From positions 1 through 64,000 of the forward strand of contig QWDQ01000033.1 in the NCBI GenBank assembly GCA_003868215.1: DNA of 64,000 bases, written 5' to 3'. Source of the DNA: Pseudophaeomoniella oleicola (taxonomy: Eukaryota > Ascomycota > Eurotiomycetes > Phaeomoniellales > Phaeomoniellaceae). The notes under the pieces are model-generated. The model was not told where the DNA came from, ran no database searches, and saw only the letters and a list, made by a program, of their open reading frames with translations. Positions 15,989 through 24,966 of the stretch are shown here, in pieces (positions within the stretch are counted from its first letter, which is position 1; each line of letters starts with the position of its first letter). The translations under genes and the position numbers were made by a program.

Positions 15989-18494
15989 CTGCTTAGCATG
16001 GGGGTTTGGCTTTAGATAGCAGCACGGCAGGGTGGAAAAGGTCAGCCAAGCCAGCACCATCTCGCTCCAGAAAGGCGCGGGCCGACAGTAACCCTCTCTT
16101 TCCTTTATTGATGATAAGCGACCCATAGTCGGATCATGCCAATTTCGTTCTTGCACCCTGTGGTCACGGCGAAAAGGGACAAAGCAGGTGAACCATCAGC
16201 CATCTACTTCCCGAAAGCTCTTGGGCTCAGTCAAACGCCATGTTCATGACTCGCGGCGCTTCCATCATCCGAAACTCAGTCAGATTCTCAAATACTACTA
16301 AGTCGTTTAGTATGTCGAGACCTGGTATCCCTATGATTTCGTATGATTGCAGTGTATTATATGCTGTCGCACGAATCGTCAATTATTTTTCCACTACGTG
16401 CCTTAACACGCGAGGCGCCAAAGAACAGGACCAATGTTTTGTGTCATTGCGAGAGAGCGTTTACCTCCTCCGACCAGGGATCTGAGCACGTATAAGGATA
16501 TTGGGCTACGCACATTATTGTGTGGTCACTGCCTACGGTTTAGTCGCCACAAATTGCAGACTTACCGCAGGACCATAATGTTGTAACGAGATAAACCATG
16601 GCAGAGGAGGAGGATAGAAAGTCATGATGATTGGGCATTCTGGATATCAGTTGTATCGACCAATTAGCATAATCACAGCTGTTGTCCAAGCGGCAACCCA
16701 TCCACATTTCGCAAGCTTTTAGCGCCACTTCGCGAGGATAGTCGACCGCGTCTCCAGCAGAGGATCAATGCGCTGGGGCCGTCCGTCGAATAGTCCATGT
16801 CGAAATGCTGTAGGCGAGGAGTAGATCCAATGAAACCTCCACTTGGACAGAGCCAGCGCCTAAAATGCAACACCACCAATTCTCTACGCCGAAGCAACTC
16901 GCAAGTTAGGCGGCAAAAGTGCTGGAGCGCCTGCGCAAAAAGGCCGTGTCTCGCATATCAACGAAAATCGGGGCATCCACTTTGTCCATTTATCATGTCT
17001 CGTTTGTGCAGGCGTCAACAGAAAGCAGGCCGTCCTTCCTTTCGATTGGCCCAAGCGACCACTGTCGTGATCATCGACTTCGGCTGAACTTTGAACATCC
17101 AATAGCACGTCCAGCTTCGGTGTTCATTCCTGAAACGACCTTGATGTGCCCTTTCATGTTCGAAATGGGCTACGCGCTTAATGCATTAACGACCAGGAGG
17201 CGCTAAACGAACCTCCAATCCGAACAAGTTCACCATTTTCCTCCGATTCGCCAGTCATGTTGGTGTTTCTGCTTGAAGGGAAAATTTGCTGGCGGTAAGC
17301 ATGCCGTGGGTGTGTACGAGGATAGAACATGACTCCTGCCACCGTAATCACTATGGTACGATCTGGCCGACGGCATCCAACAGAAGTTTGGACAGTTGAG
17401 TTTGAACACCCATGGAACCCCCGGTTCGCGCCCCACTCTCAATCAGAGCGACGTTTTCCCGCGAAAGGCGCCAGCCGGGACCTTGTTCGTGCAGCAATGC
17501 ATGGCGGGAAGACCGCTAATGGAGCTTGTAGGCGAAGCGATAGAGGACCGGGGTCTACGCAGCAGTCACGGTGGCTACCAATGTCAGCGTGACCTGCCCA
17601 CTCGCACGCCCTCCTCTCCTCACCAGGGCAGGGTTCCGTAACCTACAGTATTGCGCTATTACAGTAGATGTGCTGACCAGGCTGCCACAATTTGGCGACA
17701 GCCTTAGTGCCCCCATATCGATCCTTACCCAAGGCACACACTTGCTGAGCGTTTGATAGCCTCTTCCCTTCCGCAACTGCGGTCCGTCCATGGCTGGGCT
17801 GAGGTAAATGGATGCTTTACATCAACCACCATTCGGCGCGTAGTTGCCGTCTCTTCCCCTCCTTTCGTTCTTTCTGTGCTTGCAAGTGCTTCCCCCAGGT
17901 CGTCGATGTCCCGACTGGGAATCTGTGTGCTTCCTCCCTCTCGTCATTGACGAGTCTTATCCCTCGTTGTAATCTCTTCCTCCTGCATCCTCGTGGCTAT
18001 CCGCCGCCCACGTTTCATATACATGCAGGTTGATCCCTCTGGAATCATCTATTCTTAGATTTCTCGTTGACCATCGTTACCCCTGTGTACCTGGACGTTT
18101 GGCACGCCTATCAGCTCGAAGCTGGACCTGTCCATCACACCTCATCTGGCAGCTCTCGACGATTCGTTTAGCCGCCTGATGTTGCGACAGCCCTAAGGGA
18201 GAAACACTTGGGTAGGCTCTTACAGCAAAGGGCCTCGTCGAGTATCTAGATCATTATCGACGTGATATTGGCGTTGGCAGTAAACCCAGTTAGTACGACA
18301 AGCACAACTACCCTAGTGAGCGTCGCATCTACAAAGTGGAAAGATTGCAGTACCCTCTAAGCTGGGCCTGATCCTAGGAACTTTCAACCCTGTCCTGCCA
18401 GAGGTCTTGCATCATAGGAAAAAGTGACGCTGAGTGCTGGGCGCAACACCAAGCGCTTTCGCTGAGCGGTCTCATCTAAAGACTCCTTTATTTC

Positions 18495-20760
18495 ATGGCA
18501 ACAATTGCTTCGCCGCCAGCCTCAGGCGGTTTCTCCAGTAATCCGCCGAGCATACATCGAGACCAGAGACTTTCGGTCTTCACAGCTATCAACGGTGCCT
18601 ATGAGAGACATCCTGATAATTCAACGCACACGATGGGAGATACGATTACCGTCAAGACGGATAACCAGGTCAATTACCAGCATGGTCATAGGGGGAGCCG
18701 CCCGACACCGCCGCCTTCTAGGCAAGAAAATGCCTACGTAGAGTACAGGAACGGAACATCCATTCAGCAACAGCTTCCCTCCCCGACTGAGACGAGTGTC
18801 AACAGCATGAAGAGGAAGAGGTCGGTCTCAGAAGACCGCCATCTGACCCCGTCGTTATCTCATGCTCAAAGAGTTTCGCCGGGAGCTGTTCAACAGGACC
18901 AATATGATCAGCAAAGTTACCGGCAACATTCTATCCAGCGGATGCGTGAGATGCAATCTGATGGGGAACAGGAAGCCAACGTAGATGAATCTAAACTTCA
19001 GAGTGGGCATACGTCCAGGAATTCGCCTTCTACCGGCCAGCATGATCGATATGGTCCAAGCACACACTCGTTTCGAGAGCCGTCCTCAAGTGATTCCGAG
19101 CGCCCCAGCCATGGCTTCGCACAGCTCGGGGCTGGTCCCCATTGGCCGCGACCAATGTCTTATCCTACCATGTACCATGGGGATACTTCGCAGCGTACTG
19201 CTGAGAGTGCACCGCCTGATTCAGCGCAAGATTCGACTCCATCAGACCAAACCCAAGGTAATTGGAACTTCCCGTCGGGGAACTCAGAGCAAGGTGATGA
19301 CATGGAGGGCAACTATGCGGATACCATACATTCTCAACTTGGTCCTAAACGGAAAAGGAATTTTAGCAACAGGACCAAGACTGGATGCATGACCTGCCGT
19401 AGGAGGAAGAAGAAATGTGACGAAGGTCATCCTTTCTGTAAGTCAAATACTCCTACCATTTGTATCACTTCTGACAGATGTAGGTCAAAATTGCTCCCGA
19501 GGCGGATTCAAATGTGAGGGATATAGCGGTCGTACGCCATGGCCAAAACCTAACAATACCAAGGCTCCGGTGCCTCTACAGTCCAAAGACGGACTTTCGG
19601 AACATCCACAAGATGCACCCTATGCACCAGGAGCTCAGCCACCTCCTATGCAGCAGACTCAGCTTCCCAGTTTGATGCCAAGTGGGGAAGTCCAACAACG
19701 TCCAATGGGCCCGGAAACCCATGAAGCAGTTCGCACCGGATATATCCCCAGCCCTGCAAGTGCCAACTCGAACACTCAGCCCACGTACTCGTGGCCTGCG
19801 AACGGGCATCCACCATATCACGGCGAACGACATGGGAAGGCCGAATATCGTGATCTACCTCCTCTGCATAACCCGAACCGGACGGAACCACCAAGAGACT
19901 ACAGTGGGGTTCCTCCGATCAGCGAGATATCGCGAGCACCCCCGAGTGCCACACACGCTGCGCCTAGTGTACAATGGTCTACACAGAGCCCGTCAGATGC
20001 GCGAACACCGTACTCGGCCGCGCCGTCATCCGCGGCTGCACCACCACAGCTTGACACTCGCATGACCACGCATCCTTCCGTCAACCACGAAGCGCCGCAC
20101 ACGGCACCAACGCCTCTCCCACTCGGGGAAGAATCCGAAAAGGACAAGATGGTCCGTGGGCGTCTGTTCCGCTTCCAAGATCCTCTCCTACAAGACGAGC
20201 GCAGTCGTTGCCGGGAAGCTCTCTGGCGCCTCAACAATGCCGGCAATCCACAGTTTGGCATCAGTGAACGCGAGAAGCTCCGATTACTCCGACAGGTGGT
20301 CCAACCTCCTCCCCCTACCCCTGACATGCATGTGTCCTCACCTGCGCCTCGAATCAAGCCGCAAGGTTCGGTTGGACCCAACGCCCATGTCGAACTACCC
20401 TTTCGCTGCCACTATGGCTACAATATCAGCATCGGCGAGGATGCCTACATTGGTGAAAACTGTTTTATCCTGGATGCCTGCTCGGTGACCATCGGGGCCA
20501 AATCTTGGATCGGCTCCAACGTCACGATTCTGACCGCGATGGCACACACCGATCTCCAGCACCGACAAGGCGCGAACAGTTCATGGCAAGGCAAAGGTGT
20601 GGTGATCGAGGAGGACGTTTACATTGGCGCTGGCGCCATGATATATCCGGGCGTGAGACTGCAACGTGGTGCATTCGTGGAACCAGGCAGTGTGGTCAAG
20701 ACGGACCAAAGTCAATACGGGTACTTGGGATATAAGCCAGTGTACCTCAGTCAGGCATAG
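18495..20760 (+). CDS. Zn2Cys6 DNA-binding domain fused to maltose-type O-acetyltransferase
   Basis: Exons 18495-19437 and 19484-20760 give 739 aa. The 46-nt intron interrupts the zinc cluster and splicing restores it: Cys298, 301, 308, 315, 318, 325 (CMTCRRRKKKC, then CQNCSRGGFKC). Residues 1-290 and 330-530 are disordered, rich in Pro/Ser/Gln. Residues 536-592 match the maltose acetyltransferase N-terminal (Mac) helical domain (MVRGRLFRFQDP..RCREALWRLN), and 610-732 form a left-handed beta-helix of hexapeptide repeats (IGEDAYIGENC, IGAKSWIGSNV, IEEDVYIGAGA). His669 in AMAHTDLQHR falls where the catalytic His of the family lies. So a nuclear DNA-binding module and an acetyl-CoA-dependent enzyme module appear joined in one continuous frame. 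Function of the union is unknown; the enzyme fold may act as a trimerisation or sensor domain. Confidence 0.92.
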
Positions 20761-22104
20761 GCGTGGGGGTGACCAGAATTTATTTTATATTTCCTATCTA
20801 AACCCTGTCTATTTCAATTTTCGAGCGTTGTCGGCGCAAAAAGCAATGAAGATGGTGCGAGCTGTTTGTTTGTCGGTCATGAATCATTGAACCACAAGGA
20901 GCGAGGAAAGGAGAGAACTAGCGAATGGCAACCCCAGGAAACGGAAGAGGGGGGAGAAGAAAATGAAATATGTCCCAGTCATTTCATTTCAAGTAACAGT
21001 GGCCGGACGGGGTGGTATTGGTGTTCTCATCACGCATGCTCGTATTTTCTATTTGTTCTATATTACCATGGCATATGTACCTATTCCTTTTTCCTTTTCT
21101 CGGGGCTATCCATACTCCTCCAGTACCATACGTAACTCAGTTATTACCTAGGTATCTACTCACTGCTGGACCCATTGTGTAAATACTTTGGATTTGAATG
21201 AGTATCCCTGAATGTGGTCTTTTTGTTTTCATCTCTTGTCATTGGGGAACTTCAATATTGCAGTCGGCAGGAAGATGTCAGTATCGAGATGCTTGGACAT
21301 GTTGGGGAATGATTGCGCCATGTGGTTTTCTTGGGTGATTGTGGCTTGTTATTATGGTATCGATTGGAGGGTTGATTATCAGCTCACCCCAGCCACCTCA
21401 CCTCACTCGCCAGTGACCCGGATGAACGGCATAACATAACATCAGAAGACTGGGAACAACTATGTGAATATAGAGCAATGAATACTAGTAGGTATGTAAT
21501 TGAAGGAGGCAGGTAATTGAATTTATTGTACGATAATGTATGGGAGAAAAGAGAGAGGACTGGTAGCTACCGACTGAAGGGCTACTTATGCTTAGTAAAC
21601 ATTGCTTGGTGTTCGGTGATGTACGGTATCTTTCCATCTTTATCGATTGATACGATAATAACTAACTTGCAGGTAAATGAATTGCCATCATCACCATCCC
21701 TCTCTTCTCTCACCCTCAGCCCTTCACCTTACCAAGCACTTCCCTTCTGCTACTCACTCTTCCCTTTTCTTTTTCCTATATTGGATGCAGTAATTCTCTA
21801 TCTTCTCTTGAGGGGGGAAAAGACAGAACCAACTTCTTTGAAACCCTATTTCTACTTTGATTCTGCGACTGGACTTTCGTCGGGGCTCTTTTGTTGCTTT
21901 TCCCACGCCCACTCTCCCGCATGCGGCAACAATTCCACCTTCTGTTTCACAATCTAATTGTTTGATCGGCAACGACCAGCCCGACCGTTTACGTTTTCGA
22001 CGATACGTTCTTTCTACTATCTGGGTATATCGTAGATGATATACTGAGAACTTCTTATATTCGTGGTCAGTTATCTCATTTTGAAGGAAAATACAACAAC
22101 GAAG
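20761..22104. other. Intergenic, 3' region and promoter
   Basis: AT-rich after 20760, then CT-rich from 21680 to 22020, as in a fungal leader. No gene was recognised; short ORFs here lack motifs. Confidence 0.5.
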
Positions 22105-24966
22105 ATGGCTGCGGCAGCGGAGATGGTGATAGATGACCTGGATATGGAGTTGGAGTCGGTAGATGAATCCCAGATCATGGCCCCTCCAGCACATATCGCA
22201 GCGCGCATATACAAGAAGAACGTCGTCGACAGGCAGCGAAAGTCTTCCGCTGCGTCTTCGCGTAGGTCTTCGATTTCTTCACGACATTCTCACCAAGCTC
22301 TTCGGTCGCCGCGCGGCGGATCTCAAAGCAATCTCGTTGCTCAACATCTTCGCCGAGCTTCTATTATCGAGTCTCGAAAAGCGCGTCTCGCAGAGCGGGC
22401 TGCACATGCCGAGCAGGTCCGACTACGAGCGGCGCTTGCCAAGGCATCCCCTCGTGGAACACTTCGCGAGGAGAGAGCTGTAGCTGCGCAGGCTGCGAGA
22501 GAGAAGTTGCTTGCAGAGATTGCGGCAAGGTGTGAAGAGGAAGTCCGCCGCGCAAAACAAATTGCGGAGGAGAATAAGGAGAGGAAGGCTGCTGAACTGG
22601 CGAAGTTGCGTGAGGAGACTGCGCAGAAACACGCGGAAGCTGCAAAGCGCAGACTTGAGTATCAGCTATCATGTCGACGACCGCGGACGTCCAGTCTGCC
22701 ACGTGTGGAGGAAAAGAAAATCGTGAAGGCGGATCTGAAGCAGATGAGCAAAGTTGCCGCTGCCAAAATGATTCAACGGCAGTGGAGAGCATACAACACG
22801 CTTCGCGTCATCAAGGGATATGAGGCGCTCGGACTGTCAGTCGCTAGTATCAAAAGAATGGAATTCGAGGATGTCGGAGGAATGCTCTCGACTGAACAGG
22901 TTCTAGTCGCTACTTCTCGCATCCTTGGCTTGTTCGATTTGCTGACACCGAGCGATGGAGGCATGAGCGACAGAGGCTCTGTCAGGATTTTCCTAAGCGC
23001 CTACCTCATTCACGGCCACCCAGACGGGGCACTTAGCTATGCTGGAACGGACATCCAGGAACAGGAGCTCTTGAGCAAGGCTGAAGAACTGCTGGTTGCT
23101 TTCGAAAAAGCGACCCACGTGACAGCCTCGACCGGAAAATTGTCATCCCACGAACATCTTCCTTTCTTATTCCACACCTTCACCTCCGCCTTTCATTCCT
23201 GGAAATCGCGAGATTCTACTTCTCTCATTGACGTCATGGTCAAGCAATTTGTCGAGCTTGACCTGATCTTGCAAACAGTCAAGGACGACAAGGCCGGTGG
23301 TGCTGCAGAGGAGTACAATGCAGCCATCAAGATGAACCAAATCCAGCTTCTTGCGAAGTTGAAAAGGTTTGCTGGGCATGACAAAGCACTGGACCTTGTC
23401 CGAACAGCCGTAAGAAAAGCTCGAAAACAACATGCTAAGGCAAGGAGGGCTCCTTCGCCGAACGATGTACCCCGAACCGCTGTTGACACTGACGAAAGTT
23501 CGCGCATTGAACACCCAGATCTACCCGTCGTTGATCCTAGGTCTGGGCCCTCGGTTAGTCTCGAGGATCAGAATGCTGTATGGATGCAGCAACTGCGTCA
23601 ATCGATGACTCAGATTCCTTCCAATCGCGAAGTGTCGCATGAAATTTTGATCAACGGGTTTTACGAAGTGCAGCAACAACCATGGACTGAGTCCAGGAAA
23701 GCTTTCACGGACTCCATCAGGGTCGGTATGCGGCAAGTCCTTGAACAGGGTGGGGATCTGGCGGCCACAGGCTGGATTCGCTCCGTGGCGATCCTGATCC
23801 GGGAGAGACTTATGAATCTGATCTCGGAACGCCATCCTCTTCATGAGCGTATCGACAATTTCTTGGATATACGATTGATCGATCAATCCTGCCGGGCGGG
23901 ATTGTTTTCGTACGATTCCTTCTTCGAAAACCTTTCTAAGATGCTAGCACAGCTTTGTTCTCCCGGACGAGATGAGGCGGTCAAGGCATTTGCCGAGAAC
24001 CGCAACGGTGATGACAACATTGGTCGTCTCTTCAATTTGGTGGATATCCTCGATCTCATGAGCTTGGATCATATCAATTACGCTTTTAGAATGGCAGCGC
24101 CTACGGTTTTAGAATACGGATTAGAACACGAGACAGCGAATTTCGAGGCGGATCTATCGGCGGGTCGTCATACCCTGGATAAGGCGAAAGAGACCTGGAG
24201 ACGATCAAGGTCTGCCTTGCTCGAGGACGGTCGATCTCGAGATCCGTCGGCGGCAGTACCGTCTGGGCAAGCAATCTATGTCAGGGGATTGACGGACTTG
24301 GTACTCTCGAACCGATCTTCGATTTCCGAATCCATTCCAGAAACACTACAGCTCGATCACAGTCGTCTGCAGTCACTGCGAGCAGTGTCATACAAGATCG
24401 CGGCCACCGCAGCGATTCTGCTCACAACCAAGATTCGTCTACGGCGCAACAGGGAGGTCACCTGGACTGCGGATGCAGATCGCATCATGTCTCTCGATTT
24501 CGCAGACCCAAAGCTCAACGCTCAGCGTATCATTTCCATCATCGAATCTTCTCACATCATGCCTGATTCCACACGGGAAGGCCTGCTGAGCTTTGTGGAA
24601 CGTGTTTTGCCACCTGTTGCTGCTGCTGCTACATCTGCCGTCGTCGCTTTGGAACATCCTGAGACCACATGTCAAGAGGCTCATTTCACCTCTTCGGCGA
24701 CTGCACTGGCATTTACAGAACCCTTGGCGCTCCATCTTCTCCGCACGCTTTATTCACATGTCTCGTCTCGTTTGTCGGCAACATCGACTGCAGAGAGGGT
24801 ACGTGTGACGACATCTGCGGCGGAGAATCTGGCCAGAGCTGGAATGCCCGAGTTTGTTGCTGAGGTGTCGAAAATCGTCGATACGTTAGAACGTGTCAGG
24901 AGAGTTGATGTGGCGGCTCACGGTAGATGGTATGACGAAATCGCTACGCAGTTCTCGGATGCTTGA
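22105..24966 (+). CDS. IQ-motif and Tcp11-domain protein (Sok1-like)
   Basis: Single-exon gene of 953 aa from the ATG at 22105 (the frame extends 5' only via a GTG). Residues about 85-205 form a long Ala/Glu/Arg-rich coiled coil. An IQ-like calmodulin-binding motif follows at about 218-236 (MIQRQWRAYNTLR). The rest, about 260-950, is helical and includes the T-complex 11 domain, best seen in the regions LMNLISERHPLHERIDNFLDI and LVDILDLMSLDHINYAFR and in the C-terminal half. The yeast relative Sok1 is linked to cAMP/PKA signalling by suppressor genetics; a role here is inferred by family only. No membrane segment or signal peptide is seen. Confidence 0.9.
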   Translation: MAAAAEMVIDDLDMELESVDESQIMAPPAHIAARIYKKNVVDRQRKSSAASSRRSSISSRHSHQALRSPRGGSQSNLVAQHLRRASIIESRKARLAERAAHAEQVRLRAALAKASPRGTLREERAVAAQAAREKLLAEIAARCEEEVRRAKQIAEENKERKAAELAKLREETAQKHAEAAKRRLEYQLSCRRPRTSSLPRVEEKKIVKADLKQMSKVAAAKMIQRQWRAYNTLRVIKGYEALGLSVASIKRMEFEDVGGMLSTEQVLVATSRILGLFDLLTPSDGGMSDRGSVRIFLSAYLIHGHPDGALSYAGTDIQEQELLSKAEELLVAFEKATHVTASTGKLSSHEHLPFLFHTFTSAFHSWKSRDSTSLIDVMVKQFVELDLILQTVKDDKAGGAAEEYNAAIKMNQIQLLAKLKRFAGHDKALDLVRTAVRKARKQHAKARRAPSPNDVPRTAVDTDESSRIEHPDLPVVDPRSGPSVSLEDQNAVWMQQLRQSMTQIPSNREVSHEILINGFYEVQQQPWTESRKAFTDSIRVGMRQVLEQGGDLAATGWIRSVAILIRERLMNLISERHPLHERIDNFLDIRLIDQSCRAGLFSYDSFFENLSKMLAQLCSPGRDEAVKAFAENRNGDDNIGRLFNLVDILDLMSLDHINYAFRMAAPTVLEYGLEHETANFEADLSAGRHTLDKAKETWRRSRSALLEDGRSRDPSAAVPSGQAIYVRGLTDLVLSNRSSISESIPETLQLDHSRLQSLRAVSYKIAATAAILLTTKIRLRRNREVTWTADADRIMSLDFADPKLNAQRIISIIESSHIMPDSTREGLLSFVERVLPPVAAAATSAVVALEHPETTCQEAHFTSSATALAFTEPLALHLLRTLYSHVSSRLSATSTAERVRVTTSAAENLARAGMPEFVAEVSKIVDTLERVRRVDVAAHGRWYDEIATQFSDA

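Follow-up and report, generated by a model that had tools for sequence, protein, structure and literature searches.

Analysis of positions 1 to 64,000 (forward strand) of contig QWDQ01000033.1 of Pseudophaeomoniella oleicola (assembly GCA_003868215.1), hereafter the window, showed that the gene at 18495–20760 is an ordinary member of the already described FF-7/Bcin04g03490/AN1402 family. With a probability of roughly 0.68, it is this species' version of that regulator, an activator in which a zinc cluster is combined with a pseudo-acetyltransferase module that serves assembly or the binding of partners. By analogy with its orthologues, the nuclear Zn2Cys6 protein would bind promoters and activate light-dependent and developmental genes jointly with other factors. 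The maltose-acetyltransferase fold at its C-terminus would be a pseudoenzyme, with a beta-helix and Mac cap and without the catalytic His or Asn, which most likely holds three protein copies together and most likely presents a surface to partners, whose identity we infer, such as the GATA factor SUB1. The gene model, domains, relatives, loss of active-site residues, domain conservation and predicted monomer fold were established here; the window protein itself probably has no enzyme activity, judging from its residues. The features are as follows.

18495–19437, + strand: exon 1, residues 1–314 and the first base of codon 315, with the N-terminal region, a basic stretch and the first half of the zinc cluster
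19438–19483, + strand: intron of 46 nucleotides, GTAAGT..TAG, phase 1, within the codon of the fourth zinc cysteine
19484–20760, + strand: exon 2, with the remaining zinc cluster, linker, Mac, hexapeptide beta-helix and stop
19380–19542 (interrupted by the intron), + strand: Zn2Cys6 cluster, residues 296–334, PF00172, 40.8 bits
19547–20070, + strand: Mac_assoc linker, residues 336–510, PF16628, 67.2 bits
20146–20301, + strand: Mac cap, residues 536–587, PF12464, 35.5 bits
20356–20748, + strand: left-handed beta-helix, about residues 606–736, with Ala668 in place of the catalytic His and Gly638 in place of the Asn

The two exons join in frame across a GT..AG intron and encode a protein of 739 amino acids, in agreement with the continuous frame proposed by a sequence-only reading of the window. 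Splicing after the first base of codon 315 creates C315, the fourth of the six zinc cysteines, and the resulting spacing of CX2CX6CX6CX2CX6C (residues 298–325) is exactly that of Zn2Cys6 regulators. An alternative acceptor, a CAG ending at 19477 and thus 6 nucleotides before the used one, would keep the frame but put another residue in the place of C315 and add two more. The 46-nucleotide choice was preferred, as it gives the canonical cluster and agrees with the Botrytis gene. The coordinates that PMC8079791 prints for Bcin04g03490 (gene start at 1253972 and intron start at 1252942) give 1030 coding bases before a 50-nucleotide intron, so that the interruption follows base 1 of codon 344, which encodes the fourth cysteine when C330 is taken as the second. 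The introns of the two genes therefore lie at the same codon and in the same phase, supporting both the intron and the orthology. Were the 19477 acceptor used (window 19470–19483), the fourth zinc cysteine would be lost, which could yield an off-switch isoform.

According to Pfam analysis, the domains run in the order Zn_clus, Mac_assoc, Mac and Hexapep (residues 686–720; 46.2 bits), all four far above chance and above the respective cut-offs of 21, 26.6, 22.1 and 27 bits, as expected from the earlier description of a Mac and hexapeptide domain fused to a zinc cluster. Mac_assoc, named for the linker of such proteins, is a Pfam family of its own, and the architecture had therefore already been catalogued. 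The predicted monomer structure contains the Mac cap and left-handed beta-helix found in LacA and maltose acetyltransferases (MATs). Against the maltose O-acetyltransferase equivalog NF007499, the window protein scored 91.7 bits, below the cut-off of 314. The Mac profile matched three loci in the genome of 26.1 Mb (112 contigs), this gene and two others, and no zinc-cluster motif turned up when the 3-kb loci surrounding these two others were scanned with a regular expression. The same genome carries two free maltose-acetyltransferase-like genes, L001 (contig C18) and L002 (contig C57), apparently with introns.

Homologues were searched with residues 280–739 at E ≤ 1e-3; 7995 candidates were scored, 671 proteins matched and the best 120 were listed. 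The closest among the matches listed was from another eurotiomycete, Phaeomoniella chlamydospora (74%), and the remaining 119 ranged from 41 to 52%, their named members presumably being Eurotiomycetes as well. AN1402 of Aspergillus nidulans matched at 46% over 99% of the query. Two further searches added lichen fungi, a geoglossomycete, an orbiliomycete, two Sordariomycetes, a dothideomycete and a lichinomycete, bringing the homologues fetched to 172. Taxonomy was looked up for seven names, and the other class assignments are our assumption. Precomputed Pfam annotation placed Zn_clus and Mac jointly in 104 of the best-listed 120, bearing out the belief that similar architectures occur in other Pezizomycotina. 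It is very unlikely that two gene models were falsely joined, and this option was rejected, in line with the sequence-only reading, given the splice inside a conserved codon and the occurrence of both domains in homologues.

The same reading held the function of such proteins to be undefined. This is out of date, as orthologues have been deleted or localised in Neurospora crassa, Botrytis cinerea, Fusarium graminearum and A. nidulans (PMC8079791 and PMC4378982 among the sources), but it does hold for the biochemical role of the enzyme-like half. FF-7 (female fertility 7, NCU04001), the named orthologue of the Botrytis gene (PMC8079791), is described as having, like the window protein, a Gal4-type zinc cluster and a maltose-acetyltransferase-like domain. 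The papers term this domain a putative O-acetyltransferase, and the two Sordariomycetes relatives that we examined lack the catalytic His. In N. crassa, genome binding by FF7, its weak binding to SUB1 and its role in transactivation have been shown (PMC4378982): chromatin immunoprecipitation sequencing (ChIP-seq) found 2756 sites with an AACCGC-type motif, deletion lowered the RNA of 192 of 519 light-inducible genes, and the authors regarded FF7 as required for transactivation, not for nucleosome eviction. Deletion of ff-7 also shifted the clock period by +0.87 h (PMC8495738).

Bcin04g03490 has the domain order of the window protein, according to its published description. Seven natural isolates of B. 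cinerea are mutated in this gene, two of them with one common allele, and these mutants together with two deletion mutants lost sporulation, sclerotia, light response and infection (PMC8079791). Single changes in either domain abolished function, C330Y in the zinc cluster and Y633D or G722R in the acetyltransferase-like domain (PMC8079791). FGSG_10069 of F. graminearum is listed among mutants of altered phenotype, in a table excerpt that lacks the column heads. AN1402 has the same domains as the window protein, and a Gfp-AN1402 fusion under a constitutive promoter was nuclear in every condition tried; its C-terminus is SYM, a weak peroxisome-type signal, and the window protein has no such end. 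A possible relationship to PoxCxrA of Penicillium oxalicum was weighed and dropped, as PMC6498484 was found to mention neither acetyltransferase nor Mac. In PMC5592922, no mention of NCU04001, ff-7 or acetyltransferase was found.

For the C-terminal half, the most notable result is the replacement of active-site residues. In phmmer comparisons with the solved LacA/MAT structures 2ic7, 3srt and 1ocx, T665-A-M-A-H-T-D aligned without gaps with T-A-[TY]-H-P-[LI]-D, which places Ala668 at the catalytic His. MAFFT alignments concurred and put His669 on the following Pro, so the earlier proposal of His669 as the catalytic residue did not hold. In both alignments, the Asn of the MAT motif A-N-[FY]-D, which we take to be an active-site residue, corresponds to Gly638. 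The conserved Trp is replaced by Tyr694 (MAFFT), and the coenzyme A (CoA) loop G-N-P-A-R by G-Y-K-P, both here and in close kin. Compared with LacA/MAT (2ic7, 3srt, 1ocx, 1kqa), the window protein thus shares the Mac cap and beta-helix but differs in all of these positions and in the fusion to a zinc cluster. By contrast, Asn, His and Trp are intact in the three solved MATs and in both free MATs of the same genome. According to a 2011 paper, crystallised members all share the His, and those using acetyl-CoA share the Trp (PMC3046976).

This loss extends to nearly all of the 172 rows, counted over the last 260 residues of each homologue (360 for one). The His column contained A 128, Y 28, L 5, V 3, H 2, M 2, T 2, P 1 and I 1, where the A of rows P0122, P0124 and P0125 carries no meaning because of their broken ends. 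The Asn column contained S 125, G 36, H 5, D 2, K 1, P 1, N 1 and one gap, and the Trp column Y 104, W 58, F 6, H 1 and three gaps. When 36 rows were dropped to leave the 136 with the zinc motif and all three columns filled, His was kept in two and Asn in one. The change can be seen most clearly in lichen homologues, in which the loop C-A-T-Y-P-I-D-P is the MAT loop with Tyr replacing His. Of the three mechanisms that the sequence-only reading had offered, use of the trimeric fold for assembly is favoured.

Several points weigh against the pseudoenzyme reading. Some beta-helix N-acyltransferases work without the His, and a missing His alone is no proof of inactivity. Nor is the family uniformly dead, judging from its residues: Icmadophila (row P0157) keeps the catalytic His and Trp and has lost Asn, and Arthrobotrys (row P0164) keeps Asn, His and Trp, the sole such row among the 172. 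Some members may still bind CoA, as Trp persists in 58 of the 172 rows and a motif resembling the CoA loop, G[NVS]P[AQCR], in 25 of 136. In addition, trimer formation by the window protein is predicted from its fold, the structure model being that of a monomer. Finally, the 172 rows contain no sequence named as Leotiomycetes or Pezizomycetes, nor FF-7 itself.

Among the alternatives, the dead domain might still bind acetyl-CoA, CoA or a sugar, with the ligand reporting the metabolic state of the cell to the regulator. The pocket-forming fold is conserved, the rows with Trp or a CoA-like loop are compatible with such binding, and ff-7 expression in N. crassa responds to carbon regulators (PMC8495738). 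The window protein and its close kin, however, have Tyr for Trp and G-Y-K-P for G-N-P-A-R. Because the CoA loop has also changed there, sensing is less likely in this lineage, and we consider it unlikely overall.

Slightly less likely still is a DNA-tethered acetyltransferase that remains active on chromatin or partner proteins. The retention of both Mac and beta-helix, the Arthrobotrys site and the enzymes that dispense with His would speak for it, against a single Asn and two His in 172 rows, on which grounds we disfavour the DNA-targeted enzyme raised earlier. The Botrytis authors speculate that Bcin04g03490 acetylates substrates such as chromatin proteins, and Y633D and G722R do lie within the domain (PMC8079791); by spacing, however, both fall off the site columns and could merely unfold it. 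An active enzyme is unlikely in leotiomyceta. Catalysis by H669 through a shifted loop is very improbable: the loop is two residues longer than in 2ic7 and 98 of 120 close homologues have H, but the other 22 have I (11), M (3), S (3) or other residues, P occupies this column in 42 of 172 rows, and the active-site Asn is gone as well.

A tree of 38 rows was built with the site columns 638, 668, 669 and 694 excluded. Arthrobotrys grouped with the four free MATs (support 99/96), apart from the other 33 fusion or fusion-like rows. Forcing all 34 fusion or fusion-like rows together cost 0.57 log units (p-AU 0.41), so that the test rejects neither a single fusion with later site loss nor a second fusion; the free MATs sit on long branches, and the tree holds a single orbiliomycete. 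Orbiliomycetes are placed outside leotiomyceta in the taxonomy used. Tentatively, and at somewhat less than even odds, a functional maltose acetyltransferase became joined to a zinc-cluster regulator in the ancestor of Pezizomycotina. In Orbiliomycetes the enzyme may still be active and tethered to chromatin, while in leotiomyceta the site would have been dismantled and the fold retained as the trimeric assembly core, possibly also sensing a ligand, of a master regulator that controls light response and development.

The FF-7-type family governs light response and fruiting, and disease in two plant pathogens, and its mechanism has been discussed as substrate acetylation. If the domain is dead, assembly or sensing should replace this model, and a trimeric form would join the monomers and dimers usually described for Zn2Cys6 regulators. 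The orbiliomycete copy with its intact site offers a natural comparison for the passage from enzyme to transcription-factor part. The noteworthy part is the active-site loss, the fusion itself having been described; this loss was not stated in the titles and abstracts among the matches listed from open-licence PMC, a search outside which most subscription journals lie.

Within 1 kb upstream of the ATG, AACCGC was absent and one AAGCGC palindrome was present, about the chance expectation, and the motif was therefore not used as evidence. This palindrome, AAGCGCTT at window 18451–18458, lies 44 nucleotides upstream of the ATG and is similar to the FF7 ChIP motif. Near the N-terminus, the motif FT[AS][VI]NG (residues 29–34; window 18579–18596) recurs in 148 of 172 homologues amid poorly conserved sequence and is possibly a partner-binding motif. 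The downstream neighbour, at 22048–24966 on the + strand, is a T-complex protein 11 gene (Tcp11, PF05794; 263.8 bits) in a single open frame of 972 codons.
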